Source of the DNA: Aurantiacibacter marinus
GTDB lineage: Bacteria; Pseudomonadota; Alphaproteobacteria; Sphingomonadales; Sphingomonadaceae
NCBI RefSeq assembly: GCF_001021555.1
Contig: NZ_LDCP01000004.1
Coordinates: 62,001 to 126,000, forward strand
Reading direction: 5' to 3'
DNA: 64,000 bases
The notes under the pieces were generated by a model that saw only the letters and a list, made by a program, of their open reading frames with translations, had not been told where the DNA came from and did not search any database. Below, piece after piece: positions 25,287-41,301 of this stretch (positions are counted from its first letter, which is position 1; each line of letters opens with the position of its first letter). Position numbers and translations under genes: made by a program.

Positions 25287-26318
25287 TTAGCGCTGGACGC
25301 GGCCCGATCCGTCACCAGTCATCAGTTTTTCAACTTCCGGAACGCTTACGCGATTGAAGTCGCCCATGATTGTGTGCTTGAGCGCGCTGGCTGCCACAGC
25401 AAATTCAAGGCTTTGCTGGCGATCTTCGTAGGCGTTGAGGCCGTAAATCAGCGCCGATGCAAAACTGTCACCACCGCCAACACGGTCTACAATATCGGTC
25501 AATTCATAACGCTTGGACAGCATGAAGCCGTCATCGCGCGTGCGCAGGCAGGCGGACCAATTGTTGCGGTCAGCGCTCAGGCTTTCACGCAGAGTGATCG
25601 CGATTGTGTGCATATCGGGGTAAATATCGAGCACCTTCTGGCCCAGCGCTTCATATTTCGCCGTATCCAGTTCGCCCGATTCCACATCGACATCGACAGA
25701 GATATCGAGCGACTTCTGGCAGTCTTCTTCATTGGCGATGCCGACATCGACATATTTCACCAGTTCACGCATCACTTCAGGCGCGGTCTTGCCGTACTTC
25801 CACAGCTTCCCGCGGAAGTTGAAGTCGCACGATACGGTAACGCCCGCGTCTTTGGCAGCTTTCACGCAGGCCATCGAAAGATCGGCCGCCGACTGGCTGA
25901 GCGCAGGAGTAATACCGGTAATGTGCAGCCACTTCACGCCGTTGAAGATGGTGGGCCAATCAAACTCGTCTGCACTGGCATTGCAGATGGAGGAATTGGC
26001 GCGGTCGTAAACAACCTTCGAGGCGCGCTGGTTGGAGCCCGTTTCCAGGAAATAGATGCCGACACGGTCGCCGGAACGGCTGACGTGGGCGGTGTCCACG
26101 CCAAACTTGCGCAGTTCCATGATGGCGTTTTCGCCAATGTCATTGTCGGGTAACGCGCTGACAAAACCTGCATCGAGGCCGTAATTGCACAGTGCTACCG
26201 CGACATTGGCTTCGCCGCCGCCGAAAGTCGCTTCGAAACCGGGCGACTGGAAAAACCGCTCGTGCCCCGGTGTCTTGAGACGCAACATGATTTCACCGAA
26301 TGAAAGAAAATCCGCCAT
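25287..26318 (-). CDS. kdgK: 2-keto-3-deoxygluconate kinase (PfkB family)
   Basis: Phosphorylates KDG to KDPG, the penultimate step of alginate (and pectin) catabolism. The start is the ATG giving [18 protein letters not shown], four bases after the kdgA stop; upstream in-frame codons lie within kdgA. The 343-residue product has the PfkB N-terminal Gly-rich segment [11 protein letters not shown] at about 33-43 and the catalytic signature [16 protein letters not shown] at about 288-303, where the Asp is the general base. It is the last gene of the alginate operon. Confidence 0.95.
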
Positions 26319-26322
26319 AGTC

Positions 26323-26976
26323 TTAACCTTGGTTCCTTGATTTGCCTGCGATCGCGACAGCTTCGCGGGCGAGTTGTTCGACAGCGGCGAAATCACCACC
26401 ATGCGTTGATTCTTTTGGTGTCAGCCAGCTTCCGCCACATGCCAGGACGTGCGGCAGGGCCAGAAAATCAGGCAGGTTGGCAGCGCTGACGCCGCCGGTT
26501 GGCATGAACCGCATGTCGCGGAACACCGATCCCAGCGCTTTCAACATGGGAACGCCCCCCGCCAGGGTTGCCGGGAAGAACTTCACATCGCGCAGGCCCA
26601 GCGCATAGGCGCGCTGCACTTCGCCAGCGGTCATGGTGCCGGGATAGACCGGGATATCCTCACCCATGCAGTATTCGACGATGTCATCGACAAGGCCGGG
26701 GCAAACCGTGAACTGGCTGCCAGCCTTCTGGACCGCCTGTGCCTGCTCGCGCGTCAGGACGGTGCCCGCCCCCACGATCAGACCTTCGGTCTCGGCAATG
26801 ATGGCTTCCATGCCTTGCAATGCCGCATCGCTGCGCATCACCACTTCGATAACGGTCAGGCCGCCAGCTTGCAGCGCCTTTGCCGTCTTTACCGCGATAG
26901 CCGGATCATCCTCTGCGATAAGAGGGACGACCGGGGCTACCGCGAGACGGGCGGCCAGATCTTCTTTAATTGTCAC
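26323..26976 (-). CDS. eda: KDPG aldolase
   Basis: Splits 2-keto-3-deoxy-6-phosphogluconate into pyruvate and glyceraldehyde-3-phosphate. The 217-residue class I aldolase has the catalytic Glu in [10 protein letters not shown] (about 40-49) and the Schiff-base lysine in [13 protein letters not shown] (about 129-141), followed by [12 protein letters not shown] for phosphate binding. It lies between the SDR (30 bp) and kdgK (4 bp) in the operon. A separate Entner-Doudoroff eda could exist elsewhere in the genome. Confidence 0.94.
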
Positions 26977-27006: not shown

Positions 27007-27759
27007 TTAAGAGTAGCCGAGGCCCCCGTTTATATCCAAATTGACACCGGTGACAAATGAAGCTTCGTCTGATGCCAAATATGCCACGGCATCAGCGATT
27101 TCCTCGGCCTTGCCCTGACGCTTGAGAGGAGTTGCATTGGCGACGTTTTCCCGGGCTGCATCGGGCGTAAACGTATCGTGGAACGTGGTTGCGATCATGC
27201 CGGGGCACAGGGCGTTCACGCGAATGCCGTCCGGGCCAAGTTCCTTTGCCAGACCTCGTGTAAAGGTCATCACAGCGCCCTTGGACGTGGCATAGGCAAT
27301 CGCGCCGCCGCCGCCGCCATCACGGCCGGCCAGAGAGGCAAGGTTCACGATCGCGCTGCCTTTGGACATATGCGGCACGACAGCCTTGCACGTCATGAAC
27401 GTAGATGTGAGGTTGAGCTGCATGACATGGTTGAAGAATTCTTCGTCCATTTCACCCAGCTTCTTGCGTGCGACCATACCGCCAGCATTGTTCACAAGGA
27501 TATGGATGTGATCGCCAAAAGCGTCGCGCGCGGCTGCCACCAATGCATCGACATCGGCAGATTTGGTCACATCGGCCTTCACCTTGATCGCCTTGCCGCC
27601 TGCCGCTTCGACAGCTGCTACCGCTGCATCGGCATCTGCTTCATTGCTGTTGTAGTTGATGACAACGTTGGCGCCTTCACTTCCCAGCTTCACACACACG
27701 GCCCGGCCGATGTCGCGACTGCCGCCAGTGACGATGGCGGTTTTGCCTGCAAATTTCAT
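27007..27759 (-). CDS. SDR oxidoreductase, probable DEH reductase of alginate catabolism
   Basis: Expected to reduce 4-deoxy-L-erythro-5-hexoseulose uronate (DEH), the product of exolytic alginate lyase, to KDG with NAD(P)H. The 250-residue classical SDR has TGGSRDIG at about 11-18 (the usual middle Gly is Asp here), NNAGG at about 89-93, the catalytic Ser in NLASLAG and YATSK for Tyr/Lys. In Sphingomonas sp. A1 the known DEH reductases are SDRs, and its place between the MFS and aldolase genes supports that role. Cofactor preference cannot be read with certainty. Confidence 0.88.
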   Translation of the reverse strand: MKFAGKTAIVTGGSRDIGRAVCVKLGSEGANVVINYNSNEADADAAVAAVEAAGGKAIKVKADVTKSADVDALVAAARDAFGDHIHILVNNAGGMVARKKLGEMDEEFFNHVMQLNLTSTFMTCKAVVPHMSKGSAIVNLASLAGRDGGGGGAIAYATSKGAVMTFTRGLAKELGPDGIRVNALCPGMIATTFHDTFTPDAARENVANATPLKRQGKAEEIADAVAYLASDEASFVTGVNLDINGGLGYS

Positions 27760-27773
27760 GATATTATCCCTGA

Positions 27774-29063
27774 TTATCCGAGTTGGTTATTTGGTTTATT
27801 TGCATTGAGAGGTTTGATTTCCGGGCACAGAATGAAGATCGACAGAACAGTCAGGATCGCCAGTGCCGCGCCGACCACGAATGCCGGAGTGTATGAATTG
27901 ACCGTGATGACCGGGATCAGGAAATTGAGCCCGACCACCGCCAGCTTGGCCGCTGTCCCTGCGAAGCCTGCCAGCGAGCCCACGGAAGCGCCGCTGTAGA
28001 AATCACTCGGCAGCGTCTGGATATTGCCAATCGCTGTCTGGAACCCGAACAGGATCACCGCCATGATCAGCACCGCGGTCAGCGGTGTGGCTGCCTGCGT
28101 TGTGAGCAATAGCGACACCAGCATGATCAAACCGCCAAGCGCGATCACGGTTTTCCGCGTGCGATTGACTGTCCAGCCCGATTTGATCCGGTTGCCTGCC
28201 AGCCAACCGCCGAACCATGCGCCGAACATCGCGCCAACATATGGTACCCAGGCGTAGGTCGCGATTTCTTCGACGCCGAAGCCATAGGTGTTGAACAGGT
28301 AGATCGGCAGCCAGCCAACGAACAGCCACCAGATCGGATCGATGAAGAAGCTGGCGAGAATTACACCCCAGCTTTCCTTGCGGCTGAGGATTTCGCCGGT
28401 CTTTGGCGCATAGTCGGCGATCTCGTTGGTTTCTGCATTACGCTGGCCTTTGAGAATGAACTGCCGCTCTTCCTCACCAAGCCACGGGTGCGCCTCAGGT
28501 CCTGATTTGTAGACGATCAACCAAGGCACGAGCCACAGGAAGCCCAGCGCACCAACCGCGATGAAAGTTGCCTGCCAGCTGCCAAGAAATACGAACAACA
28601 GGCCGATGATCGGGGCTGATACGATACCGCCAATGGCAGCACCGGAATTGAAAATTCCTTGTGCCAGCGCGCGTTCGTCAATCGGAAACCATTCGGCATT
28701 TGCCTTGGTCGCTCCTGGCCAGTTGCCCGCTTCCGACACGCCCAGAAGCCCCCGGAATAACGCAAACGTCATCAGGGAGTGAGCGACCGCATGAAGCATT
28801 GTGGCTGCCGACCAGACAACGATGGACAGGACAAAGCCCAACCGCACACCGATCCAGTCGAATATTTTCCCGAAAATCGATTGGCCGAATGCATAGGCGA
28901 ACGTGAACACATTCAGGATGATGGCATAATCCGTTTCGGTCAGCCCGAGCTCGGAAGATATTTCCGGCCACAAGAACCCCAACGCCCCGCGATCAATATA
29001 ATTGATGATGGTTGCCAGAGCGACAAGCCCCACAATCCAGAACCGGAATTTACCCTTCATCAT
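27774..29063 (-). CDS. MFS transporter (ACS/hexuronate type), probable DEH or oligoalginate importer
   Basis: A 429-residue, 12-helix major facilitator of the anion:cation symporter group (ExuT-like): INYIDRGALGFLWPEI at about 20-35 is the typical TM1 motif, with the intracellular DWIGVRLGF segment near 68-76. Its start overlaps the PL17 stop by ATGATG, so it is translationally coupled to the lyase. By context it carries unsaturated uronate monomer or short alginate oligomers across the inner membrane, comparable to ToaA/B-type symporters of marine bacteria; this assignment is inference. Confidence 0.88.
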   Translation of the reverse strand: MMKGKFRFWIVGLVALATIINYIDRGALGFLWPEISSELGLTETDYAIILNVFTFAYAFGQSIFGKIFDWIGVRLGFVLSIVVWSAATMLHAVAHSLMTFALFRGLLGVSEAGNWPGATKANAEWFPIDERALAQGIFNSGAAIGGIVSAPIIGLLFVFLGSWQATFIAVGALGFLWLVPWLIVYKSGPEAHPWLGEEERQFILKGQRNAETNEIADYAPKTGEILSRKESWGVILASFFIDPIWWLFVGWLPIYLFNTYGFGVEEIATYAWVPYVGAMFGAWFGGWLAGNRIKSGWTVNRTRKTVIALGGLIMLVSLLLTTQAATPLTAVLIMAVILFGFQTAIGNIQTLPSDFYSGASVGSLAGFAGTAAKLAVVGLNFLIPVITVNSYTPAFVVGAALAILTVLSIFILCPEIKPLNANKPNNQLG

Positions 29064-31243
29064 GTGTCGTCTCCCCCTCCCAGAGGTACACGCGCGGCAT
29101 AGCCCCGCCAGTTGATTTCGCGCCCTTCAATCGTGACGCTGTGTTGTGCTGCGGGATCATTGTCCCACGATATGGCGACAACCACTTCCTGACCGGCAAG
29201 CGTCTCGATAAAAACAAGGTCATACCCGTGGGAGCGGACATGGTGCAGCGATGCGATCTGGCTGTTGCTGCCAATCGTCTGTTCAGTTGCGCCGTCATAA
29301 AGACCGTGCGATTCCAGCACACTGACGAAGCTTGCACTGTCCGTACCGCTGACCCGCTGGATCACCAGCGGTTCGCGCCGCAGGTTGAAGTCCGGATCGT
29401 TTGCGCCGCTTTCGCCCAGGATCACTTCCATGCCCGCGCTCGGTACGAAACGGTAAGTGTAAAACCGGCCATCCAGCAGCCATGTCATAAAACCTTGGTC
29501 AGGCGCAGGCGTGGCGCTGCCATCGACCCAGATGTGCTGATAGCCATTGTCAGCGCCAAGAACCGGGCGACCCGCAATGTTGCGCACAGGATCAAACCCC
29601 AGCCGCATGATGTGGCCCGAATAATGCAGTGGCAGGTCGAATTGTACTTCGCTTGTGCCCTGCGCCCGCAGCACATCGAGCGCCAGCGGCTGTGACAGGC
29701 CTTCGATATCAACCATAGCCAGAACGCGCGTCATGCTGACGCCTTCATTCGGATAGGCACTGTCGATCCCGGCCGCGCTGACCTGGAACCCATCTTCAAC
29801 GTTGAAGTAATGCTGCGTAGGCCACGCTGTATCGGCCAGATCGCGCACGCCGTAAAAATGGCTCTGCTCGTTCACGACCAGCGCATTGTGAGCGATGGTC
29901 TGCTTGGCCCAGGTCTCGTTTTCCGGCAGGTAGCGACCACCCTCCTTCGCCTCGATATTGAGGAACCGTGCGGCACCATAATCACGCACGATTTCATTGC
30001 CGCGATCATACAGCTGCCAGCTCAATTTATCGAAATGGCCGTGCCCCATCCCTTGCGACGCATTTTTGGCGACCATTGCCATGTGCATCGGGCCCTGCCC
30101 GCTGCGCATCACTGCAACAGCGCCCTGATCACCGTCAGGCCCGTCGCTGAACAGCATGGAACGGAACTGGAAGGGTTCCGCTTCGTCAGCTGCCAGCGCA
30201 CGCGACATTTCCAGCCCGGCAGGTGTGATAACTGTGCGCCCCTGCTGGCGCGCAATATCCAGCAGGGCAGGATCACGGGTTACCGAATATCCGATGGCAA
30301 CGCCTTCATACAGCTCGGCCGTATTCAGGCTCTTGTCGCGGATGGCATCGTTGAACGGGAAGAAATACCCGTCATAGGTCAGCTGGATCGTCGCGTTGAG
30401 CGCCTTCACCAGAATGCCGCCGCGATGTTCGAATATGCGCAAGGCCGGATCATTACGCTGTATCGCGCCCGCAAATACCATAAACGGCAACATGGCGAAG
30501 CGCTGGTAATAGGGGCCTTCGGTATAATATCCATCCGGCGAGAACAGCAGTTCGGTCTGGCGGACAAAGCCAGCCTCGCCGTCACCCGCGCTGCCATACA
30601 GCGCGCGGTGAACCAGATCATCATCGCCCAGCACATAACCGGCCATGCCCACACCTGCTGTTGCCCACGTGGCGTGATTGTGGATGAGGTTGAAGGTCGC
30701 TTCTGAATCAACCGACAGGAATTCGGCTGCGCGGCGGAAAACGTCATCATCGATGCGCTGGCGGTCCGCCGTATCAAGGTCATCGCGCACGGTTTCATAT
30801 GCCTGCACCGCGTGCACCATCCACATGGCATCATTCAGCACCTGCCAGAACAAGCGCCCGACGTTCTGGTTGGCACGCGCGGGATGATCCCCAAGTGTAG
30901 GATAAAGGTCCGCATATTCGAGCAGCATATCGCGCACGAATGCCAGATAGCGTTCTTCGCCTGTCAATTGATAAAGATGGCCGGCAAGGTACATCGCGCG
31001 GTAATTGCGCTTGTGCTGTTCGTGGGTGTAGCCGCCGCCCGGATCGGCAGGGACGGGCACAGTTATGCCCGCCGCGATCATGCCGTTTACGAATTCCTCT
31101 GCGAGCGCCATTTCGCTGGCGAACAGCTGTGGATACGCCATTGCTGACGCGGATTGCCCGGCAGCATCAAATTCCTGTGCCGCAGCGGGCAGCGACAACG
31201 CCAGTCCAGTTGCAGCAAGAGCGAGTGCGATAGAGCGCTTCAT
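29060..31243 (-). CDS. Oligoalginate lyase, polysaccharide lyase family 17
   Basis: Exolytic lyase releasing unsaturated monouronate (DEH) from alginate oligomers. The 727-residue product has a signal peptide (to AAAQ, about 23), an alpha/alpha-barrel domain with the catalytic Asn/His pair in LIHNHATW (N189, H190) and Tyr residues in DGYYTEGPYYQRFA (about 238-250), then a beta-sheet heparinase II/III-like domain with MGHGHFDKL (about 399-407). Length and motifs match PL17 enzymes such as Alg17C. It probably acts in the periplasm or at the surface. It overlaps both PL6 and the transporter by ATGA-type junctions. Confidence 0.94.
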   Translation of the reverse strand: MKRSIALALAATGLALSLPAAAQEFDAAGQSASAMAYPQLFASEMALAEEFVNGMIAAGITVPVPADPGGGYTHEQHKRNYRAMYLAGHLYQLTGEERYLAFVRDMLLEYADLYPTLGDHPARANQNVGRLFWQVLNDAMWMVHAVQAYETVRDDLDTADRQRIDDDVFRRAAEFLSVDSEATFNLIHNHATWATAGVGMAGYVLGDDDLVHRALYGSAGDGEAGFVRQTELLFSPDGYYTEGPYYQRFAMLPFMVFAGAIQRNDPALRIFEHRGGILVKALNATIQLTYDGYFFPFNDAIRDKSLNTAELYEGVAIGYSVTRDPALLDIARQQGRTVITPAGLEMSRALAADEAEPFQFRSMLFSDGPDGDQGAVAVMRSGQGPMHMAMVAKNASQGMGHGHFDKLSWQLYDRGNEIVRDYGAARFLNIEAKEGGRYLPENETWAKQTIAHNALVVNEQSHFYGVRDLADTAWPTQHYFNVEDGFQVSAAGIDSAYPNEGVSMTRVLAMVDIEGLSQPLALDVLRAQGTSEVQFDLPLHYSGHIMRLGFDPVRNIAGRPVLGADNGYQHIWVDGSATPAPDQGFMTWLLDGRFYTYRFVPSAGMEVILGESGANDPDFNLRREPLVIQRVSGTDSASFVSVLESHGLYDGATEQTIGSNSQIASLHHVRSHGYDLVFIETLAGQEVVVAISWDNDPAAQHSVTIEGREINWRGYAARVPLGGGDDT

Positions 31244-33480
31244 TGGGCGGAGATTTCGGTAGTGAGGTTTTCGCTCATTTCGACACGCGGTTCACCCGCA
31301 TAGTTCAGCTCAGTCAATTCCGGTCCGGGCGTCGCAGCGAAGGTATTGCGAGTTATGGCGGTAACCGGCGTCCCGACGGTATGTGTGATGCCAATAGGCG
31401 CTGAAGAGACAAACGCATTCTGGCCGATCATCGTGCGCTGCGCGCCATGCAGGTCGATGGAACTGCGCGACCCCGATCCAACATTCTCAAAAATGGACCC
31501 AGCAATGTTCACGTGCGGACCAAAAGTGCTTTCGTCGCGCCCGCCGCGATATACTTCTGCCGCAGAGCCGGTGACGTTCCGGACGATAGAATCCTGAATA
31601 TCGAGATATTCGATATTGTACTGGCCCTGGTCATCATATTCGGATGCCGCAGAAACAACCGCTCCGCTGATATTTTCGAATATACTGTCACGAATATCGA
31701 CCCGGTCTGCGAGCGTGGACTTGCCGAAATAAATGACGTCGAAATCGCGGTTCACATCGAGATTGCGGACGACGACGCGCTCCAGCTCAATCTGCAGATT
31801 GCCGCGGATCGGGATGCTGGCTGTGCGGATTACCGCGTTGCCGGATGCGTCGTCCGCCTCTGCGCCGTCGATTGTCAGGTCCTCCAATCGCAACCGTCCA
31901 CCTTCGCGCATCTCGAACAACGTGGGCCGCACGAATGTAAGTATCGTGTCGCTTTCGCCCGTGATCGTCAGCGAGCGGCTGATGGGAATGATCCGATCAA
32001 CCACATAGTGGCCCGGCGAAAGCTGCAATGTATCACCGTCATGGGCATCAGCTATTGCGTCTATAAGTGCAGTGCCGGACATTTCGACTTCGATCGCGCG
32101 CCCTGTTCCGAATGGCTCCTGCGCGCCCGGCTTCGGGTACCAGTCCACGCCAACTTCATCCAGCGACATGACCCGCAAGTCACGCGGGGCACCTACTGCG
32201 GCAAGCGAAGGGTCTACCGGATAGAGCAGGCCGTTCCCGCCCCGCTCCATTGCCGTGTCAACACGCCGGACCGCGTCCAATGCGCTGTGGAGCTGCCCGG
32301 AAACTACCGCATTTCCAGCGAACGCGATGCCGGAGATATCGGCATCCACTTCGAGGAATGTCCCCTCCTCGCGCCCGCCAAGAAGGTTGGAATAGAAATA
32401 ACTGTCTGACGGTGCAGCAGAGCGTTCTTCATCAGCACCTGCGCCAAAGGTTATCCTGTCACTGTCGATAATCGTGTTGCGCAGGATCTGTGCATATTGC
32501 ACTTCAACATAGCGGTTGGCGGGCGAGTTGGGCACGCCGTTCATCACGGTCAACGCGCTGGCAAAGCCATTGCCGCGCAGGCCTTCCATATAATTGTCCT
32601 GCACTGTCTGACGGCGATTGATGACGCGGATCCCGCCAGTGTGGTCTTCACCATCGCCGATAAAGACATTGCGCTCCACCAAATTACCGTCGCCGTGGCG
32701 CAGCGTCAGCGCCCCGCGTGACCGCAGGAACAGATTGCCCCGCACGGTATTGCCACCAGCCTTGACCGAGATGATTTCCACCTCACCGCTGCAGCGATCA
32801 AAGACGTTGTTTTCCACCAGCGTATTTGAATCAAATTCTGCAAAATGGCTGGTCCCGATGCGCAGGGTTTCCCCCCCATTGGAACCAAGGTTCGGGCGCG
32901 GTCCGAAATAGTTGTGATCGATGCTGTGGTTGTTTTCACGGCTGCCTTCGGTGTTGAGCCGTACCGCCAAAGTCACACCGCGATTGGTCTTGCCCACCAG
33001 ATGATTGTGATCGAAACGGTTGTCTTGCCCGTAGATGCCAACCCAATAGTCAGTTTCATTGCGGTCCGGCTTGCTGAAATGATCAATTACAGTTTGCGTC
33101 ACACGCGAATTGCGCGCCAGATCTTCGCTGTCGCGGCGGAAGGAAATCACTTCCCCTGTGGGGCTGAAACCATCGCGGAATACAAGCCCTGACACGATAA
33201 TGTGCTGGCCACCGATACGCAGATTTGATTGGCCAGTCAGGACAACTTCGCCCGGAGTTTCCGCCGCCAATGTAATCGGCGCATCGGCACTGCCTTGGCC
33301 AGTAATCACAATTTCAAAATCGCGCCACTCGCCATTGGCCAGGGTGATCGTGTCGCCTGCGCTCACTTGCCCTAGTGCGGCCGCGTATTCATCCGGATTG
33401 CTGACAAAGCGATCTTCCGCGCGGGCTGGTGCGACCCAAAGGGAAAGCGCCGCAACGCAAAGGCCCATCCTGCCGAACAT
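31240..33480 (-). CDS. Alginate lyase, polysaccharide lyase family 6, with a second beta-helix domain
   Basis: First gene of the alginate operon. The 746-residue protein has a signal peptide (to ARAE, about 21) and an N-terminal parallel beta-helix with the PL6 (chondroitinase B-like) signatures: Ca-binding region GSNGGETLRIG (E204), catalytic Lys in IISVKAGGN (K240) and Arg in LTLRHGDGN (R261). Residues from about 460 form a second beta-helix (DTLQLSPGHYVVDRI onward), as in two-domain PL6 enzymes. It would cut polymeric alginate for PL17 to finish. A promoter and a conserved operator-like site lie upstream. Confidence 0.93.
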   Translation of the reverse strand: MFGRMGLCVAALSLWVAPARAEDRFVSNPDEYAAALGQVSAGDTITLANGEWRDFEIVITGQGSADAPITLAAETPGEVVLTGQSNLRIGGQHIIVSGLVFRDGFSPTGEVISFRRDSEDLARNSRVTQTVIDHFSKPDRNETDYWVGIYGQDNRFDHNHLVGKTNRGVTLAVRLNTEGSRENNHSIDHNYFGPRPNLGSNGGETLRIGTSHFAEFDSNTLVENNVFDRCSGEVEIISVKAGGNTVRGNLFLRSRGALTLRHGDGNLVERNVFIGDGEDHTGGIRVINRRQTVQDNYMEGLRGNGFASALTVMNGVPNSPANRYVEVQYAQILRNTIIDSDRITFGAGADEERSAAPSDSYFYSNLLGGREEGTFLEVDADISGIAFAGNAVVSGQLHSALDAVRRVDTAMERGGNGLLYPVDPSLAAVGAPRDLRVMSLDEVGVDWYPKPGAQEPFGTGRAIEVEMSGTALIDAIADAHDGDTLQLSPGHYVVDRIIPISRSLTITGESDTILTFVRPTLFEMREGGRLRLEDLTIDGAEADDASGNAVIRTASIPIRGNLQIELERVVVRNLDVNRDFDVIYFGKSTLADRVDIRDSIFENISGAVVSAASEYDDQGQYNIEYLDIQDSIVRNVTGSAAEVYRGGRDESTFGPHVNIAGSIFENVGSGSRSSIDLHGAQRTMIGQNAFVSSAPIGITHTVGTPVTAITRNTFAATPGPELTELNYAGEPRVEMSENLTTEISAQ

Positions 33481-33511: not shown

Positions 33512-33539
33512 ACAATACGGTTGGCGGGCTCTGTGTCAA
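33512..33539 (-). promoter_or_regulatory. Promoter of the alginate operon (before PL6)
   Basis: On the minus strand a perfect TTGACA (33534-33539) is followed after 16 bases by TATTGT (33512-33517), with the PL6 ATG 54 bases after the start of the -35 box. The same distance occurs at the two alginate TonB receptor genes, which supports the call. Confidence 0.7.
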
Positions 33540-33564
33540 CCAGATTTCTATGCCAAATCTAGAT

Positions 33565-33580
33565 AACTGTCATACCAGTT
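33565..33580. promoter_or_regulatory. Alginate regulon operator-like site A
   Basis: AACTGTCATACCAGTT, an inverted repeat (AACTG-N6-CAGTT) whose core read on the minus strand, CTGGTATGACAG, fits the TGGTNNNACCA type of site bound by FadR-group GntR proteins. It is centred 36 bp upstream of the -35 box of the PL6 promoter and shares 15 of 16 bases with the site before the second TonB receptor. Confidence 0.7.
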
Positions 33581-33593
33581 TACCAGGTGTGAC

Positions 33594-34352
33594 CTAATGT
33601 AGCTTTGCGGCAGAAAGGAAGCGTTCGCGGCTCGCGCTGGCACGCTCCTGCACCTCTGCAAGCGCCTGCCGCTCGGTCGCATCAAGCATCGTTTCGATCA
33701 GTCGTTGAAAATGTTCGCGCATTGCCGCGCGCGCTGCGCCCGAATCGCGTGCCTTCAAGGCCTGAAAGACGGCGCGGTGCTCTTCCGTGCGGATATGCTT
33801 ATCGTGGTTGCAGACGGATTCGTAGACAGCTTTTACCTGCGGTATCGAATCACGCATCCGCCACAATTGCTTCACGCTATGGAGGATTGCCGCGTTCCTG
33901 GAAGCCGATGCGATCGTCTCGTGGAACATCTCATCGGCCAGGTCTGCTTGTTCTTTATTGCCAACCGCCATGCGATTGACGAGGTCTTCTATCTGGTCGA
34001 TCTGTTCATCGGTGATGTGGTGCGCTGCCAGCGCCGCAGCCTCGGATTCGATCAGCATGCGCGCTTCGGTAACTTCAAATGCGCTAACGCTTGGCAGCCG
34101 CTCTTCGGATTGGGGCATGCCTTCGCTGACATATACGCCGGACCCTGTCTTGATTTCGAGCCGGCCGATTGCCTGCAGCGCGATTTCCGCCTCGCGGATC
34201 GTCACGCGGCTGACATCGAACTTTTCGGCAAGCTCACGCTCACCGGGCAAGCGTGAGCCGATAGGGAAGGCTCCCTCGTCGATCATCTCGGCAATTTGCC
34301 TTGCGATGGATTGGTAAAGTCTTTTCGCAGTCATCCCCTGCCCCGAATTCAT
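33594..34352 (-). CDS. GntR/FadR-family transcriptional regulator of the alginate locus
   Basis: A regulator of about 252 residues with an N-terminal winged HTH (RLYQSIARQIAEMIDEGAFPI; ELAEKFDVSRVTIREAEIAL) and a C-terminal all-helical FCD domain with metal/ligand His residues (FHETIASASRN, EEHRAVFQALKARD, MREHFQRLIE). Starts at 34352 (ATG, chosen) or 34334 (ATG preceded by CAGGGG) are both possible. It lies upstream of PL6 on the same strand and is the obvious candidate to bind the shared operator-like motif; its ligand may be DEH, KDG or KDPG. A half-site AATTGGT at 34387 hints at autoregulation. Confidence 0.9.
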   Translation of the reverse strand: MNSGQGMTAKRLYQSIARQIAEMIDEGAFPIGSRLPGERELAEKFDVSRVTIREAEIALQAIGRLEIKTGSGVYVSEGMPQSEERLPSVSAFEVTEARMLIESEAAALAAHHITDEQIDQIEDLVNRMAVGNKEQADLADEMFHETIASASRNAAILHSVKQLWRMRDSIPQVKAVYESVCNHDKHIRTEEHRAVFQALKARDSGAARAAMREHFQRLIETMLDATERQALAEVQERASASRERFLSAAKLH

Positions 34353-34421
34353 GTGCACAGATGCGCGCTATGTTAAACTCCAGACTAATTGGTTTTGCCA
34401 CTGATCGCAACTGAGTGAAAT

Positions 34422-34457
34422 TGAGAGGTGCCCATAACGCGGTACGGGCACCTCTCA
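34422..34457. terminator. Hairpin after the first alginate TonB receptor
   Basis: TGAGAGGTGCCC pairs perfectly over 12 bases with GGGCACCTCTCA across a 12-base loop, just downstream of the receptor stop at 34466 and before the promoter region of the GntR gene. On the minus strand it is followed by AATTTCA, a weak U-tract. Confidence 0.75.
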
Positions 34458-34465
34458 GGGAGAAA

Positions 34466-37400
34466 TCAGAAGCGGAAACGCACGCCGGCAAAGAACCTTG
34501 GCCCATATACCGAAGCTGATGAGAAATCGTCCGGTGCGCCGCGATAATCGATGCGCGGCTCGTTGAACAGGTTGATCCCTTCGAGACGAACTGTGACATT
34601 ATCGGCCACACGCAGCGATATCCGCGCCTCGAAGACGCTGGTATCGTCAACGTAACGGATACGGCCTGGTGTCGCCACGAACTGCTGGAAGTAGTTCGAA
34701 CGATATTTCCACACACCTTGCAGCTCGATCGGGCCAATTTCGTAATATGCCTGCGCCGATACAACGTGCTTCGACAGACCGAAGATGTTTGCCGGAACGA
34801 TGAGGCCCTCCTGCACTCCGGCGATCGAACCATCATCGTTGAAGTTGGTTACCGCGCCGAGCGTATCGTCCTCGAATTCGAAATTCGAATTCGCGTAGTT
34901 ATAGCTCAGCTTGAAGCCCAGCCCGTCAAGCGGCGCAGGCAACCAGCTGAACCGGTGTGCTGCGGTAAGTTCCAGCCCATAGATGTCGCTGCTTTCGCCA
35001 GTGACATTCGTGGTGGACACGATCGTTTCCAGATCGATGCCATCGACATTGAAGATTTCGGTCTGGCGGGAGTTTACGAAGCCACCATCGAAGTTCTTGT
35101 AATACACGCCGACCGCCAGGATCGAATCTTCGTCCGGATACCATTCAAGCGCAACGTCCGCGTTCCATGACAGAAGCGGTTGGGTGAAAGGATTACCGGT
35201 TGCGCCCGCAGAACCCAGCGCTTCTTCGACGGAGAACACCGGTGCACCTTCGTCAACCAGGGCGTTGAAAGTACGCCCAAAGCTAAGCGAAGACGGGTCC
35301 GGACGCGAAAGCGCGCGATAGACTGCGAAGCGTCCGAGCAAATCGGGAGTGAATTCGCCAGTCAAGTTGAAGCTCGGCAAATATTCCGTGTAGGAGCCAC
35401 CGCCCGAGACGACGACGAGCGAATTTTCGTCCGAAACGATGTCGATCAGTTCACCGGTCGTATCATCAAACACAGCGTTCAGTGTTCCGCGGAAACCGCG
35501 CGAGTCCACTTCAGTATGAACCACGCGGACACCGAGGTTCCCACGCACCGGAAGCGAACCGAGATCACCGTTGAAGTTGGCCTGGACGTAACCGGCCCAG
35601 GTACGCTCTGTAACATCGCTGTTCTGGATTGAATCGAAATCGCCGGTCGGGAAAATCGGCACGCCATTGTTGTCGAAAGAGAGGCCCGAGGGGTCTTCAC
35701 GCTCCAGCACCTGCACCACGCAAAGCGCGTCGAACGTGGCGTAAGAGTTGGCAGTGCCAATCACATTGCCATTTTCATCAAGGTTCGTGATCAGCGGATT
35801 GCCACCCGATACCGAGGACAGGAAGCCGGAAACCGGGAAGCTGGTCCGGCATTCACGGTTGGCTGCGGCCAATGCGCCTGTATCGTCAGTGTCGTTGTAG
35901 TTGTTTTCAAACCGGCTTGAGCCAGAGGCACCCGGGACGTCGCGATAGTTCAGATCCTGGTAGCGCACACCGGTCATGATGGATGAAATGAAACCATCCA
36001 GTTCATATTCGGCATCCAACCGTCCGGCCCAGATCGAATTGTACCGGTCCTGTTCAAGATCGGCGCGCACGCGTGGATCGTTTGCGAACAGATCGTGGTT
36101 GGTCACGTCGAAATTCTGGGTGAAGAAATTCAGCGCCTGCGAACCATTTTGCATGATCTGCACAGCAGTTTCGACGCGGTCGTTGGTCGAACTGCCATCG
36201 CTTTCGCGGGCGTCGGGCCACACTGCGGCACCCGTGATATCTTCGTTATCCTCCGTCCGGAAACGGACCTGCACGGCCTGTTCGATCCGCTGTGTTTCAG
36301 AATAGGAAACGTCACCCGAAATGGTCAGGCGATCACCAGGCGAAGCGACAAAGTTGATGCCGCCACCGTAATAGTTCTCCTCACGCTGGAGATATTCGCT
36401 GATTGCTTCGATACGCTGTTCGCCAGTGTACTGACGCAGGGCGCCGCTTTCGGTGTAGATCAGGGGCAGATCGATGCGGTTCGGATCACCCGGCGCATCC
36501 ACGCGGCGGCCTTCCACAAAACCAAGGTCGCTGCGCTGCTCCCTGTAGAAACGCTTCGCATACTGGAAATCGGCATTCAGCTCGAAGGTCGGCGAAGGCC
36601 GGTACTGAAGCGCAGCGAAGAAGGAATCGCGCTCGTCATCGGTAATGTTGGTACGCAGGCCATAACTGTTACGCGCGATGATGAAATCGTTGGTATTCGT
36701 GCCGTCGCGCAGCGCGTTGACGACGTCTTCGTTGGAGTTGCAATTGCCGTCATCATAGACCCCTGCGTTCGGCGTTGTCGGATCAAGGACACACGCCTGG
36801 ATCGTATTGCTGACATTCGCTTCGCGTTCCGGGTTGGTGGAGCGGTTGGTCTGGTAGCCGAGCGAAATTCCCAGCTCGCCAAACCCGCCGAGATCATACT
36901 GATCGACATAGCTGAGCGTAATCCGGTGACCGAAATCACGGAAACGCTGGTCTTCATCAACGTTGAAATTCTGCGGATTGTAAGGAAGTTTGTACTCGGC
37001 CTGGAACCGTCGGCGGCCGTAATCGAGCGGCGCTACGGTTTCCAGCGCGATCTGGCCTGCCACACCGCCTTCAATCAGGCTGGCAGACTGGGTTTTGTAG
37101 ATGGCCAGCGTGTTGAACAGTTCCGAAGGGAACTGGCTGAAGTTAACCGAACGGTCGCCACTGCCGTTTGTGGCAATGCGGCCGTTGATCGTGGTTGAAC
37201 TGAGGAACGGCCCAAGGCCGCGAAGTGCGATTTCCGTGGCCCCGCCCTGTTCGCGGTGAGAAGCTGCACCGGTAATCGTTTCAAGCGCTTCACCAATGGA
37301 CAATGCCGGAAGATCGCCGATTTCATCCGATGTCAGCACGTCGACAATCAGATCGTTTTCGCGCTTTTCCTCAATGGAAGACTGGATTGTGCCGCGAATA

Positions 37401-37564
37401 CCCGTGACGACGATGTCACCCCCCGGTGCCGCGCCTTCGTCACCAGCATCCTGCGCCATGACCGGCACTGCCGACAAGACCATTGCGCTGGTGGCAAGCA
37501 AACCCGCCATCATGTGCTGCTTCTTATTAGAGCGGCGAGCACCGTCCATACCAAAACCCATCAT
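34466..37564 (-). CDS. TonB-dependent receptor of the alginate locus (first)
   Basis: Outer membrane transporter of 1,032 residues, of the long Caulobacter-type TonB receptors used for polysaccharide oligomers. Signal peptide ends at VMAQ (about 38); the plug starts at DIVVTGIRGTIQSSIEEKR (about 50-68) and the barrel ends in a terminal Phe (GVRFRF). GGGAGAG lies before the two adjacent ATGs at 37564 and 37561. It is transcribed separately from the lyase operon but its promoter carries the same -35 box and upstream site, so it is predicted to be co-regulated and to import alginate oligosaccharides. Confidence 0.92.
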   Translation of the reverse strand: MMGFGMDGARRSNKKQHMMAGLLATSAMVLSAVPVMAQDAGDEGAAPGGDIVVTGIRGTIQSSIEEKRENDLIVDVLTSDEIGDLPALSIGEALETITGAASHREQGGATEIALRGLGPFLSSTTINGRIATNGSGDRSVNFSQFPSELFNTLAIYKTQSASLIEGGVAGQIALETVAPLDYGRRRFQAEYKLPYNPQNFNVDEDQRFRDFGHRITLSYVDQYDLGGFGELGISLGYQTNRSTNPEREANVSNTIQACVLDPTTPNAGVYDDGNCNSNEDVVNALRDGTNTNDFIIARNSYGLRTNITDDERDSFFAALQYRPSPTFELNADFQYAKRFYREQRSDLGFVEGRRVDAPGDPNRIDLPLIYTESGALRQYTGEQRIEAISEYLQREENYYGGGINFVASPGDRLTISGDVSYSETQRIEQAVQVRFRTEDNEDITGAAVWPDARESDGSSTNDRVETAVQIMQNGSQALNFFTQNFDVTNHDLFANDPRVRADLEQDRYNSIWAGRLDAEYELDGFISSIMTGVRYQDLNYRDVPGASGSSRFENNYNDTDDTGALAAANRECRTSFPVSGFLSSVSGGNPLITNLDENGNVIGTANSYATFDALCVVQVLEREDPSGLSFDNNGVPIFPTGDFDSIQNSDVTERTWAGYVQANFNGDLGSLPVRGNLGVRVVHTEVDSRGFRGTLNAVFDDTTGELIDIVSDENSLVVVSGGGSYTEYLPSFNLTGEFTPDLLGRFAVYRALSRPDPSSLSFGRTFNALVDEGAPVFSVEEALGSAGATGNPFTQPLLSWNADVALEWYPDEDSILAVGVYYKNFDGGFVNSRQTEIFNVDGIDLETIVSTTNVTGESSDIYGLELTAAHRFSWLPAPLDGLGFKLSYNYANSNFEFEDDTLGAVTNFNDDGSIAGVQEGLIVPANIFGLSKHVVSAQAYYEIGPIELQGVWKYRSNYFQQFVATPGRIRYVDDTSVFEARISLRVADNVTVRLEGINLFNEPRIDYRGAPDDFSSASVYGPRFFAGVRFRF

Positions 37565-37593
37565 TACTCTCCCAGAGTCGTTGTTATGGGTTC

Positions 37594-37621
37594 AGGGTAC
37601 GCTGGGAGGCAACTATGTCAA
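37594..37621 (-). promoter_or_regulatory. Promoter of the first alginate TonB receptor
   Basis: Minus-strand TTGACA (37616-37621) with a weak -10 TACCCT (37594-37599) 16 bases on; the ATG is 52 bases from the start of the -35 box, nearly as at the PL6 and second receptor promoters. Confidence 0.6.
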
Positions 37622-37647
37622 CCTAACGGACATGCCAATATGGGTTA

Positions 37648-37663
37648 TCCTGTAATACCAATT
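37648..37663. promoter_or_regulatory. Alginate regulon operator-like site C
   Basis: TCCTGTAATACCAATT matches 13 of 16 bases of the site before the second receptor and lies 37 bp (centre to centre) upstream of the -35 box. A further partial copy on the opposite strand (GTTGGTATG core) lies at 37693-37708. Confidence 0.55.
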
Positions 37664-37780
37664 GGTGTGTTGTAAATATGATACATTTTGCGAGTTGGTA
37701 TGGATGTCCATAAACCACAGCTGCTTTCTCCCATTGCGCAGGGGCTTGGCCTGGAGGTTTCACATTACCTGCCCACAACG

Positions 37781-37813
37781 AAAAAGCGCCCCACAATCGT
37801 GAGACGCTTTTCC
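37781..37813 (-). terminator. Hairpin terminator after the second alginate TonB receptor
   Basis: Read on the minus strand, AAAAGCGTCTCAC pairs with GTGGGGCGCTTTT (three G-U pairs in RNA) across GATT and runs into TTTTT. It starts 27 bases after the receptor stop at 37840. Confidence 0.8.
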
Positions 37814-37839
37814 TTTGTTCGGTGATGTTACCGCGAGCG

Positions 37840-40800
37840 TTAGAAGCTGAGCGTAGCACCAAAGGTGAGGCGGCGATCTGGCAGACCCTGGAAACAGAAC
37901 AGTCCGCCTTCGTTCACGCATGACTGCGTAATGTCGGACTTGGTCAGGTTCACACCTTCAACACCAAAACTCAGGTAATCCGTCACATTGTAGACCACAC
38001 TGGCGTTAAGCTGCCCCCTTGCTTCCGTAACGACCGGGAAGCCAAGGGTACTGTTTGTTGATGCACCACCAGCTGTATCGAGCGTGCGGAACGCGTCACG
38101 CCAGGTGTAGCGTGCACGGGCCGACAGTCCGTACTTCTCGTAGAACAGCGTCACGTTGTACGCATGCGGCGAGAAGTCGAGCAAGCCCTGGACGGCAGTG
38201 ACTTCAACGAAGTCGACAATGTTGTAAACGCCATTGATCGCGTTGAAAATATCCGTGCCGCGGTTCGCAGAAGTGTTGAACGCCTCACCACCACCAAATT
38301 CCTGGTAGGTGTAGTTGGCAATCACACCAAAGCCGGATGCGAAGCCCAGAGTATCTTCGAAATCGGACAAATCATACTGGAACGCCACTTCGATACCGGT
38401 CTGCGTGGTCGATGCAGTGTCGTTAATCTGCGTGATGATATCCACGCAGATACCCGTGCCCTGGATATTGGAAGATACATTACGGTTGGCGATCGGGTTG
38501 AAGATACCGCCGGCTTCGCAAGGCGCGGTGATATCCCGGAACCCGTTCCCATCTTCTGCAGCCTGTTCAAGCTGCTCCACAAACAGATTGTCACGCACCT
38601 TGTGGAAGACACCTACGCTCAACAAAGCTGATGGCGCGAAGTACCAGTCAACAGAAGCATCATAGGAAGCCACGGTTTCCGGTGCCAGGCCTGGGTTGCC
38701 GATCCGGATGGCAGCCTGCGAACTGGTGCCGAACACTGTCGACGTGGACAGCGAGTTGAAATCGGGACGGTTGATATCCTCTGTATAGGATGCCCGCAGA
38801 ACAACGTTTTCGATCGGTTCTGCAACCAGGTTTACGCGCGGCAACCATTCGTCATAATTGCCGGTCGTCGTCTCCCGAGTGACACCCCCGGTATCCTGGT
38901 TGATGTTGTTGCCGGTCGAATCCACGGAGGTCCCGAGATAGCGTAGACCGATATTGCCGCGCAGGATTCCGAAATCGAAGTTCGCCTGGGCATAGGCTGC
39001 TACAGTTGTTTCATCGATATTGAAGAAGCCCGTTGGGACTGCCTCTGCATCACCGATTGTCTTCATTCCCGGCACCGTCAGAAGCGCAGCTCGCAAAGCG
39101 TTCAGCGTGCCTTCCGGATCGTTGAAAGACCTGTCTGGATCGATCAGCAGGAAGTCCCGGAACGCCAGTTCACGCCCGTCGAAATCACCGGCGAAATCAG
39201 GCCCCGGTACAAGCAGGTCCGCAAAGGCGGTGCCGCGAGGACTATCGCTCAGGCGGGTCAGGTTGAGGTTGGACGCAACATCCTGGAAGTAGCTGTTCCG
39301 ATTGTTGTAACGCACACCGAAGTCGAGCGATTCAACGATCTGCAGCCAGTCCGAAGTATCGTAAGATACGTCGACACGGAAAGCATCTTCGCTGTTCTCG
39401 ATTTCGTCATTTCCGACCGTAATCGACTGCAAAACGACGTTCGCCGGATTCAGCAGATCGGCAATCGACGGGGCAAAAGGCGACTGGGTATCAATGCCGA
39501 ACGTCAAGCCGTTGCTCAGATCGTAGCGGAACGGCACTGAGTTGTCGTTCAGCGGATTGTTGCCGCCATCAAGCGGGGCATTTGGATTGATGAAGTTGAG
39601 CGTGGTGCTGAGATTGGGGTTGCGTGTGTCCGAACGCGAAGTCGAACCTTCGACGCGGATTGAAACGCGGCCAAGTTCCCAATCGAAGCCGGCGCGGTAG
39701 AGCTGGCTTTCGGTCAGGCGAGCGCCGGTGTCGCTGGAGAAGCGCAGGTTCGGATCGTCATCATCGGCAGTCAAAACCACATCAACGGTCCCCGTAAGGG
39801 CGGCCTGGATGCTGCCCAGCTCAACACCGTCGAGCGAACCGAAGTTCACGGTTTCGAACGTGTCGGGCACGTTGAAGTTGAGAACAGAGCTTACGCCTGA
39901 TCCCTGGATGCGGCTGCTTTCCTGGCGACGCTGCTGGTCGTTGTAGAAGGCATCAAAGAAGAACGTCAGATTGTCAGCAGGTGCCCACTCGACGGAACCG
40001 GCGAAGTTCACGGTCTCATACTGGAAATTTTCCAGTTCCTGGTTCAGGAATTGAATTCCGAGGAAATCAAAGCTCTGCGCTGCCGGACGACGTGTTGCCT
40101 GATCTTCCAGGGTCAGTTCCGGCGGAGTTGCATTGTTGAACCGAAAGACATCGGCATTCACATTTTCCACAAGGCCGCCATCGCGGTCAACGCGTGGACG
40201 CAGCGAAAGGGCGTCTTGTTCGGTATAGCTGCCGGATACCACGATGCCGATGTCACCAATTCCGGTCTGCCAGTTGTCACCGAAGCTGGCGGCGACGCGC
40301 GGTGTGATACTGTCCGCAAATTCGCTGTACTCACCCTGCACCCGGAGTGATGCAACGCGGCCGACGATTTCGAGCGGGCGAATGGTGCGCAGGTTGATCG
40401 TACCGCCGACCGACCCTTCGATCGTGCGGGCTTCCGGCGCCTTGATCACTTCGAGCGAAGCAATGATGGCGGCGTTCACATCTTCAAAGTTGATGCCGCC
40501 ACGGCCGGAGCCTGAACCCACGGTCGAAACGCCGTTGATTTCTGTGCGGTTGTCGTTGGTACCGCGGATCTGCACACCGCTGCCGACACCGGCGCGGCGA
40601 GTGATCTGGACACCGGGGATGTTTTCAAGAACTTCTGCGAGGTTCTGATCGGGCAGTTTACCGATGTCCTCCGCCTGGATGACCTCAATCAGACTGCCGG
40701 CATTGCGCTCTTCATTCAGGGCGCTCTGAAGCGCGCTGCGAATGCCGGTTACGACAATCACTTCGCTTTCGTCAACTGCAGGGTCTTCGCCTACGGTTGC

Positions 40801-40908
40801 GGCGTCCTGAGCCAGAGCGGGCGCGGTGCTGATAGCGAGAGCACTTCCGGCCAGAAGACCAGCGACAATACGATCACGACGGCAAAAGCCGCCCTTAAAA
40901 TTCCTCAC
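37840..40908 (-). CDS. TonB-dependent receptor of the alginate locus (second)
   Basis: A 1,022-residue TonB receptor with signal peptide ending ALAQ (about 34), plug beginning EVIVVTGIRSALQSALNEER (about 49-68) with IPGVQITRRAG, and barrel ending RRLTFGATLSF. It is related to the first receptor in domain plan but not a near duplicate. The pair may divide long and short or G- and M-rich oligomers, which is speculative. Its promoter has the best-preserved regulon site after that of PL6. Confidence 0.92.
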   Translation of the reverse strand: MRNFKGGFCRRDRIVAGLLAGSALAISTAPALAQDAATVGEDPAVDESEVIVVTGIRSALQSALNEERNAGSLIEVIQAEDIGKLPDQNLAEVLENIPGVQITRRAGVGSGVQIRGTNDNRTEINGVSTVGSGSGRGGINFEDVNAAIIASLEVIKAPEARTIEGSVGGTINLRTIRPLEIVGRVASLRVQGEYSEFADSITPRVAASFGDNWQTGIGDIGIVVSGSYTEQDALSLRPRVDRDGGLVENVNADVFRFNNATPPELTLEDQATRRPAAQSFDFLGIQFLNQELENFQYETVNFAGSVEWAPADNLTFFFDAFYNDQQRRQESSRIQGSGVSSVLNFNVPDTFETVNFGSLDGVELGSIQAALTGTVDVVLTADDDDPNLRFSSDTGARLTESQLYRAGFDWELGRVSIRVEGSTSRSDTRNPNLSTTLNFINPNAPLDGGNNPLNDNSVPFRYDLSNGLTFGIDTQSPFAPSIADLLNPANVVLQSITVGNDEIENSEDAFRVDVSYDTSDWLQIVESLDFGVRYNNRNSYFQDVASNLNLTRLSDSPRGTAFADLLVPGPDFAGDFDGRELAFRDFLLIDPDRSFNDPEGTLNALRAALLTVPGMKTIGDAEAVPTGFFNIDETTVAAYAQANFDFGILRGNIGLRYLGTSVDSTGNNINQDTGGVTRETTTGNYDEWLPRVNLVAEPIENVVLRASYTEDINRPDFNSLSTSTVFGTSSQAAIRIGNPGLAPETVASYDASVDWYFAPSALLSVGVFHKVRDNLFVEQLEQAAEDGNGFRDITAPCEAGGIFNPIANRNVSSNIQGTGICVDIITQINDTASTTQTGIEVAFQYDLSDFEDTLGFASGFGVIANYTYQEFGGGEAFNTSANRGTDIFNAINGVYNIVDFVEVTAVQGLLDFSPHAYNVTLFYEKYGLSARARYTWRDAFRTLDTAGGASTNSTLGFPVVTEARGQLNASVVYNVTDYLSFGVEGVNLTKSDITQSCVNEGGLFCFQGLPDRRLTFGATLSF

Positions 40909-40939
40909 AATTTCTCTCCCATTTAATATTCTTTACGCA

Positions 40940-40967
40940 AAACTAGATTTGCATACCTGTTTGTCAA
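40940..40967 (-). promoter_or_regulatory. Promoter of the second alginate TonB receptor
   Basis: Minus-strand TTGACA (40962-40967) and TAGTTT (40940-40945), spacer 16, ATG 54 bases from the start of the -35 box: the same geometry as the PL6 promoter. Extra GGTATG cores occur inside the spacer and between this promoter and site B. Confidence 0.65.
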
Positions 40968-40992
40968 CCCCAATTCATACCTCTTGGGGTTA

Positions 40993-41008
40993 AACTGTCA
41001 TACCAATT
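40993..41008. promoter_or_regulatory. Alginate regulon operator-like site B
   Basis: AACTGTCATACCAATT, 15 of 16 bases identical to the site before PL6 and centred 36 bp upstream of the -35 box of the second receptor. Confidence 0.7.
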
Positions 41009-41010
41009 TG

Positions 41011-41301
41011 CCGATTCTTCGCTGGACCCTCTTGTCGCCGTTACGTCCAAGAGCCGGATCAGGATCGGCATCTCTCATTTGCCTCTCTCGCCACGCGGTT
41101 CCGCAGCTCAAGCTCTTCCCCCTTAAGTACAAATTATCGAAAATGACAGCGGTGTCATTACGGCAGGCAATGATCGTGCTGGCGTAGTGGCCATTTTGAC
41201 ACAGTCGTGAGGGAATGATGATTTGTGAACGAGCTGGTATGCCAAAGCTGACGAACACAATCGCCTGCGGGGCGTTGGGTCGGGGCGCTGGGTCGGGGTG
41301 C
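41011..41301. other. Intergenic region upstream of the second alginate receptor
   Basis: With the promoter to its left this is the longest gene-free stretch (about 390 bp, 40909-41301). I see no supportable gene. It holds a perfect 7-bp inverted repeat AATGACA-GCGG-TGTCATT at 41142-41159 without a T-run, a weak GGTATG-containing copy of the alginate motif near 41232, and two 13-bp direct repeats (GCGTTGGGTCGGG/GCGCTGGGTCGGG) at 41272-41297 next to the tetR stop. Confidence 0.5.

Follow-up and report, generated by a model that had tools for sequence, protein, structure and literature searches.

The stretch analysed here, 64,000 nucleotides of the Aurantiacibacter marinus genome (hereafter the window), carries on its minus strand a gene cluster for alginate use and, amid it, a gene (gntR) for a FadR-subfamily GntR regulator. 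As an earlier note on this DNA had described, gntR sits inside the cluster, between the genes for a PL6-type alginate lyase and a TonB-dependent receptor (TonB2). The genes for PL6, a PL17 oligoalginate lyase, a major facilitator superfamily (MFS) transporter, a short-chain dehydrogenase/reductase (SDR), 2-keto-3-deoxy-6-phosphogluconate (KDPG) aldolase (eda) and 2-keto-3-deoxygluconate (KDG) kinase (kdgK) follow one another almost or entirely without gaps and are likely to make up one operon, which would be read as a single transcript. Three promoters, in front of this operon, TonB2 and a further receptor (TonB1), share a control site of two boxes, O1 and O2, placed at closely constrained distances from the −35 hexamer. 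As read from the sequence, this two-box site belongs to a familiar general kind of regulatory switch, and its layout is unusually strict.

The earlier note had singled out a related 16-mer upstream of each of these promoters. Re-reading of the sequence and a pattern search located all three where it had put them, and the distances from the centre of the 16-mer to the centre of TTGACA were as claimed: 36 bp for PL6, 37 bp for TonB2 and 36 bp for TonB1. It had also given a −35-to-ATG distance of 52–54; the spacing is indeed similar, TTGACA being separated from the start codon by 53 bases in PL6, 51 in TonB2 and 53 in TonB1, but the listed start of TonB1 is GTG rather than ATG. With up to three mismatches allowed, the 16-mer matched the window four times (the three sites and position 23540) against 0.35 expected, a count reached in none of 100 shuffles. 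Across the whole genome (2,835,898 bases), zero-mismatch matches were confined to the two sites used for the pattern, while up to three mismatches yielded 25 matches compared with 10 for a reversed control pattern; the 16-mer alone is therefore weakly specific. The layout TGGYATNA-N(29–33)-TTGAC, in contrast, had four matches genome-wide and its control none, these being the three promoters and one site (C1:1288615) within a 958-aa open frame. Specificity in the genome thus comes from the box and a properly spaced TTGAC taken together.

Conservation was assessed in 249 genomes of the family, 28 of which, the window's own included, encode PL6 at E 1e-100. The other 27 contributed 28 loci (two from one genome), in which genes were mapped using the window proteins. 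PL6, TonB1 and TonB2 orthologues, including the window's three, provided 61 upstream regions; 55 of these were anchored on a TTGAC in the expected range, a procedure that inflates the conservation of TTGAC itself and not that of the boxes. The O1 core, TGGYAT, was found 37–41 bp before TTGAC in 39 of the 55 anchored promoters. Its offset was 39 bp in 22 promoters, 38 bp in 10, 40 bp in 4, 37 bp in 2 and 41 bp in 1 (s.d. 0.8 bp), while in the same 39 the start codon followed TTGAC at anything from 51 to 110 bp (s.d. 10). Among the 19 genera with anchored promoters, O1 was present in 17 and O2 in 16. The claim that the regulatory unit is a 16-bp motif stood only for its core: relatives keep AAATTGGTATKACA (minus-strand reading) and not the full palindrome AACTG..CAGTT. 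A 16-bp inverted repeat was accordingly rejected as the operator, as only TTGGTATKACA and an AT-rich flank are conserved in relatives. The O1 consensus TGGT-ATK-ACA agrees with the FadR-subfamily form TKGT-N2/3-ACMA up to the last base, which is A in 14, G in 15, T in 7 and C in 3 promoters (n = 39); the published subfamily consensus is TKGT-N3-ACMA (PMC4494728).

The earlier note had described a single box near −70. O1 would lie close to that position, but it is joined by a second box, O2, about 23 bp further downstream and 15 bp before TTGAC, and the array extends to the −35. In 23 of the 55 anchored promoters O2 is a GGNRT that starts precisely 15 bp before TTGAC, and in 8 it is the other half, ATRCC, at 12 bp, giving 28 promoters combined; the window's own TonB1 box, 14 rather than 15 bp before TTGAC, was left out of these strict counts. 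Both boxes occur in 22 anchored promoters and at least one in 45. When TTGAC was ignored, 19 same-strand box pairs were 22–24 bp apart, against 0.26 expected from randomized sequences that preserved neighbour frequencies; a minor peak of 7 pairs appeared at 13 bp. In one related locus (L059), O2 is a full palindrome, AGTTTGGCATGCCAAACT. GG directly precedes TTGAC in 37 of the 55 promoters, compared with 10% of all 1105 TTGAC occurrences counted on the two strands of 36 loci; therefore, the −35 itself may belong to a third contact. In several loci, for example L067, L068 and L159, an extra GGTAT box lies 13 bp upstream of O1, and a 13-bp step likewise separates O2 from the GG of GGTTGAC. The window has an O2-type box, AGCTGGTATGCCAAAGCT, at 41232–41249, about 230 bp farther upstream than the TonB1 boxes, beyond the 3′ end of the tetR frame; this box may be an auxiliary site or chance.

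A prediction fixed beforehand was then applied to a held-out set of 19 further PL6 genomes from a wider search of 397 genomes. These supplied 44 upstream regions, 8 of them without TTGAC in range, and 36 distinct anchors, one duplicate anchor having been dropped. One PL6 upstream region counted as unanchored (L164, G737) contains TTGGTAT boxes and a TTGAC outside the distance window, and its start codon is probably misplaced. O1 was found in 19 of the 36 promoters (null mean 0.34, maximum 2 in 300 draws) and O2 in 23 (null mean 0.57, maximum 4), with at least one box in 26. In the 13 of 19 loci whose fetched stretch contained gntR, 25 of 30 promoters had at least one box, compared with 1 of 6 in the other loci. 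A predicted box in the spacer between −35 and −10 fared differently. Spacer boxes of the form GGYAT/ATRCC were present in 8 of 16 TonB1 promoters of the training set (null mean 1.8), but only 1 of 8 held-out TonB1 promoters had one. The TonB1 spacer box was thus not replicated, and the counts of such a box at PL6 (3/23, null 2.7) and TonB2 (3/16, null 1.9) were at chance level. A weaker signal was GG starting at +11 of TonB promoters (9/32; held-out 6/22).

Table 1. Genes and candidate control elements of the alginate cluster (window positions)
Feature	Position	Strand	Remarks
Box O1, PL6 operon promoter, AACTGGTATGACAGTT	33565..33580	-	core TGGTAT 33577-33572
Box O1, TonB2, AATTGGTATTACAGGA	37648..37663	-	
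Box O1, TonB1, AATTGGTATGACAGTT	40993..41008	-	
Box O2, PL6 operon promoter, TGGCAT within AGATTTGGCATAGAAATCT	33550..33555	-	
Box O2, TonB2, TGGCAT	37632..37637	-	
Box O2, TonB1, GGTATG	40976..40981	-	14 bp from TTGAC instead of 15
Possible third box GGTAT, between −35 and −10 of TonB1	40953..40957	-	
−35 hexamer TTGACA of PL6, preceded by GG	33534..33539	-	16-nt spacer to TATTGT
−10-like hexamer TATTGT of PL6	33512..33517	-	4/6 matches; by consensus only
−35 hexamer TTGACA of TonB2	37616..37621	-	16 nt to weak TACCCT (3/6)
−35 hexamer TTGACA of TonB1	40962..40967	-	16 nt to weak TAGTTT (3/6)
gntR, FadR-subfamily GntR regulator (GntR and FCD domains), proposed binder	33594..34334	-	
PL6-type alginate lyase, first gene of catabolic operon	31240..33480	-	Chondroitinas_B, 345 bits
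PL17 oligoalginate lyase	29060..31243	-	NF042990, 937.9 bits, below cut-off 1400
MFS transporter	27774..29063	-	family profiles
SDR oxidoreductase, likely reductase of 4-deoxy-L-erythro-5-hexoseulose uronate (DEH)	27007..27759	-	DEH role suggested by context
KDPG aldolase (eda)	26323..26976	-	TIGR01182, above cut-off
KDG kinase (PfkB family)	25287..26402	-	family profiles
TonB-dependent receptor TonB2	34466..37564	-	TIGR01782, above cut-off
TonB-dependent receptor TonB1, GTG start	37840..40908	-	TIGR01782, above cut-off

The candidate regulator has an N-terminal winged helix (PF00392, 67.7 bits against a cut-off of 27) and a C-terminal FCD domain (PF07729, 80.1 bits against a cut-off of 24.3). 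Its start was set where relatives begin to align; the longest frame begins at 34358. In 28 aligned GntR copies, paralogues included, the residues D134, H138, H186 and H208, which we take to be the metal ligands of the FCD domain, are identical throughout, and the recognition helix VSRVTIREAEIALQA is near invariant, which fits the unchanged site. The nearest solved relatives are GntR-family proteins including PdhR and NanR, and the best NCBIfam matches were to ExuR (113.7 bits; equivalog cut-off 396) and UxuR (95.7 bits; cut-off 442). A search of the own genome at E 0.001 returned only GntR itself. Beyond the FCD domain, the GntR tail (window 33618–33632, minus strand) carries a near-invariant SRERF in the 28 copies. 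Second gntR copies were seen in L149 (G023) and L077 (G146), each beside a TonB2-type receptor; the L077 copy is diverged (44%), and the TonB2 promoter there still has O1 and O2.

Regulator and boxes occur together. Within the fetched stretch around PL6, gntR was present in 23 of 28 related loci. At E 1e-40, 66 of the 249 family genomes matched GntR. These matches fall into two groups separated by a gap, one with identities of 52% or higher (E 1e-72 or better) and one that does not exceed 46%; the former defines an orthologue in 26 genomes, each among the 28 with PL6. The strict layout was found in 16 of 26 genomes with the orthologue and 16 of 222 without it, G248 having been set aside (Fisher p 2.7e-10, a value that overstates independence as the genomes are related). 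When the search was widened to the class, at E 1e-60, the regulator was recovered in 1 of 385 genomes, the own genome. Finally, G060 (L056) has PL6, no regulator match at E 1e-40 and no TGGYAT upstream of PL6 or TonB1. Given the boxes, the way their sequence and spacing are kept from genus to genus and in the held-out set, and this co-occurrence, the local regulon of PL6, TonB2 and TonB1 proposed in the earlier note has held up, and GntR, which would bind the boxes, is very probably its regulator.

The same data bear on who else might read the boxes. AraC-type activators recognise tandem repeats that adjoin the −35 and are spaced by about two helical turns, and the direct repeats described here, 22–24 bp apart beside the −35, resemble such sites. 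A different regulator of this or another type might thus act on the boxes, with GntR controlling something else. We consider this improbable, as gntR accompanies the boxes (co-occurrence was scanned for this regulator family alone), its orthologue is confined to PL6 genomes of the sample and O1 fits the FadR-subfamily consensus up to the last base. The boxes might also be a general feature of TonB-receptor promoters in this clade rather than an alginate regulon, since two of the three targets and three unlinked matches in relatives are TonB receptors. PL6 promoters carry the layout too, however, and its restriction in the own genome to three promoters and one open frame, along with its rarity in genomes without the regulator, led us to reject this reading, which we regard as very unlikely indeed. 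In G060, a frame that looks LacI-type by eye lies a few kb from TonB1, two ACCGGTGTCA repeats precede TonB1, and the arrangement suggests a regulator swap; a short KDG-kinase-like remnant lies just ahead of the PL6 frame of this genome, in the same reading frame.

Our preferred explanation, to which we assign a probability of roughly 0.5, is that the FadR-subfamily GntR represses the three units (the PL6-PL17-MFS-SDR-eda-kdgK operon, TonB2 and TonB1) by binding a two-box operator before each, and is released by an alginate breakdown product. If transcription is taken to begin about 34 bp beyond the first T of TTGACA, O1 (AAATTGGTATKACA) would be centred about 68 bp before that start and O2 (TTGGYATRCC, often one half only) about 45 bp before it. 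The two boxes, 22–24 bp or about two helical turns apart and both rigidly tied to a consensus −35, would hold two dimers side by side, which without alginate would keep RNA polymerase off the −35. A breakdown product, presumably DEH, KDG or a short unsaturated oligouronate, would enter the FCD pocket and release the dimers.

As judged from promoter sequence, the sign of regulation is nearly even, with a slight lean to repression. On the side of repression we counted the A that follows TTGAC in 44 of 55 anchored promoters, the frequent GG before it and the −10 boxes of PL6, which exceed chance (mean 3.9/6 vs 2.6 for shuffled sequences; held-out 3.3 vs 2.65), as well as the precedents of AusR and NanR discussed below. 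Two PL7 genes at which, read by eye, boxes follow a promoter-like sequence were counted likewise. The text examined of a Vibrio gntR knock-out study (PMC13390454) did not indicate whether the regulator represses or activates there. A scan for sigma-70-like promoters found that of PL6 (10/12 matches) and missed those of TonB1 and TonB2, its 6 regional matches being within chance (mean 3.3, s.d. 2.0). Intrinsic strength of all these promoters was dropped as an argument, as the −10 comparison sustains it for PL6 only.

Several observations weigh against repression by GntR at these boxes, or against the generality of the site. Neither box was found in 10 of 55 anchored promoters and in 10 of 36 of the held-out set, and an anchor was lacking in 6 of 61 upstream regions and, in the held-out set, in 8 of 44; in G233, one of the 16 genomes with both orthologue and layout, the single strict layout match sits away from the alginate cluster. 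The −10 boxes of TonB promoters are at the level of shuffled sequence (mean 2.97 vs 2.84; held-out 2.77 vs 2.89), and a TAnnnT placed 15–17 nt after TTGACA is limited to 16 of 55 anchored and 7 of 36 held-out promoters. Chance-level TonB −10 boxes would suit activator-dependent promoters, and because of this weakness our odds for repression were lowered from a modest preference to the present slight one. No box is robustly conserved over the core promoter, and the best conserved box, O1, lies upstream of it. Positions upstream of the core promoter are bound more often by activators than by repressors, and rigid spacing to the −35 marks activators.

GntR might therefore be an activator, its dimers at O1 (about −68) and O2 (about −45) recruiting RNA polymerase when an alginate product is bound, or play a dual role, repressing without ligand and activating with it; we hold this to be a serious possibility, at rather less than even odds. 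It would account for the fixed position of both boxes relative to the −35 despite a drifting start-codon distance, for the lack of a robust box over the core promoter and for the poor TonB −10 boxes. The consensus −35 and above-chance −10 boxes of PL6 promoters argue against it, as do the box positions at the two PL7 genes and the fact that the published alginate GntR, AusR, is described as a repressor (PMC8286568, PMC7874173). The earlier note had called an activator-like position unusual for this family. This was too strong, as reports describe E. coli FadR as an activator of fabA and fabB (PMC4537474, PMC4259882). By extension, a rigid two-dimer platform locked to the −35, with boxes about two helical turns apart, could serve as an inducer-dependent activator or a dual switch, an idea that we put forward tentatively.

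Comparison with known systems places the repression that we favour among related precedents. AusR of Zobellia galactanivorans, also of the GntR family, controls alginate genes; it is reported to bind single, double or triple operator copies and to be released by alginate products (PMC8286568, PMC7874173). AusR is flavobacterial, and the comparison covers family, target genes, operator copy number and release. NanR of E. coli is a sequence relative of the window GntR (3.1e-12), and its repeats are closely spaced, whereas the boxes here are 22–24 bp apart and upstream of the −35. It belongs to the FadR subfamily, binds GGTAT-type direct repeats, (GGTATA)3, as cooperative dimers and responds to a sugar acid (PMC8012715, PMC4494728). 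NanR repeats are described as lying downstream of the polymerase-binding site, and NanR cooperativity as depending on a 32-residue N-terminal extension (PMC8012715); the window GntR, whose chosen start is a few residues before the winged helix, has no such extension. ExuR, the best NCBIfam match, and UxuR likewise serve a uronate pathway, and the best O2, TTTGGCATGCCAAA (L059), resembles the 2-nt core spacing reported for UxuR (PMC4494728). Both matches are far under the equivalog cut-offs, however, and the genes here are for alginate rather than hexuronate, with a two-box layout. E. coli FadR shares the winged helix-turn-helix family, but it controls fatty-acid genes, and its effector is acyl-CoA and its sites are palindromic. 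It is reported as both activator and repressor (PMC4537474, PMC4259882).

Within the literature examined, the only alginate regulator named for a Sphingomonas was AlgO of strain A1 (PMC8286568, PMC8778563). Titles and abstract openings in the literature searched, with most subscription journals outside its coverage, yielded no description of an alginate GntR/TonB regulon, and a rigid two-box, −35-locked architecture was not met for GntR regulators in the literature examined. These findings provide a concrete, testable alginate-use regulon across one bacterial family, judged by gene content to be Sphingomonadales-type alphaproteobacteria. Its two-box layout predicts promoters in held-out genomes and locates unlinked alginate-linked genes in relatives, and it opens a clean test of how a GntR-type regulator acts from upstream of the −35.

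The unlinked genes came from layout matches before TonB receptors in three genomes of genus g5 (G248, G160 and G004), in two of which, G248 and G004, a PL7 alginate lyase is close by. This second locus (L142 in G248, L144 in G004) contains the layout-bearing TonB receptor, the PL7 lyase and, besides these, a BD-FAE-type esterase. Read by eye, and in this one genus, the PL7 upstream regions of both genomes have TTGGYAT boxes just after a promoter-like sequence; the PL7 gene of G068 showed no clear box pair in the stretch read. Further strict layout matches in regulator-bearing genomes were G233:C1 and G004:C2, and one match in the regulator-less G090 has neighbours that match none of the cluster proteins.

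Within the cluster, TTGGYAT was absent from the 380 nt upstream of the MFS gene in 27 loci, window included. TGGYAT occurs 36–93 nt before the gntR start in 9 of 23 relatives, and at 141 nt in a tenth relative, but not in the window. We take the Chondroitinas_B match of the first lyase to indicate PL6, and many relatives of the KDG kinase align only from residue 13–29 onward; therefore, its true start may lie downstream of 26402. Between TonB2 and gntR, a very stable hairpin (34422–34457, minus strand; −30 kcal/mol for a 66-nt stretch, z −5.7) is followed by no clear U run.

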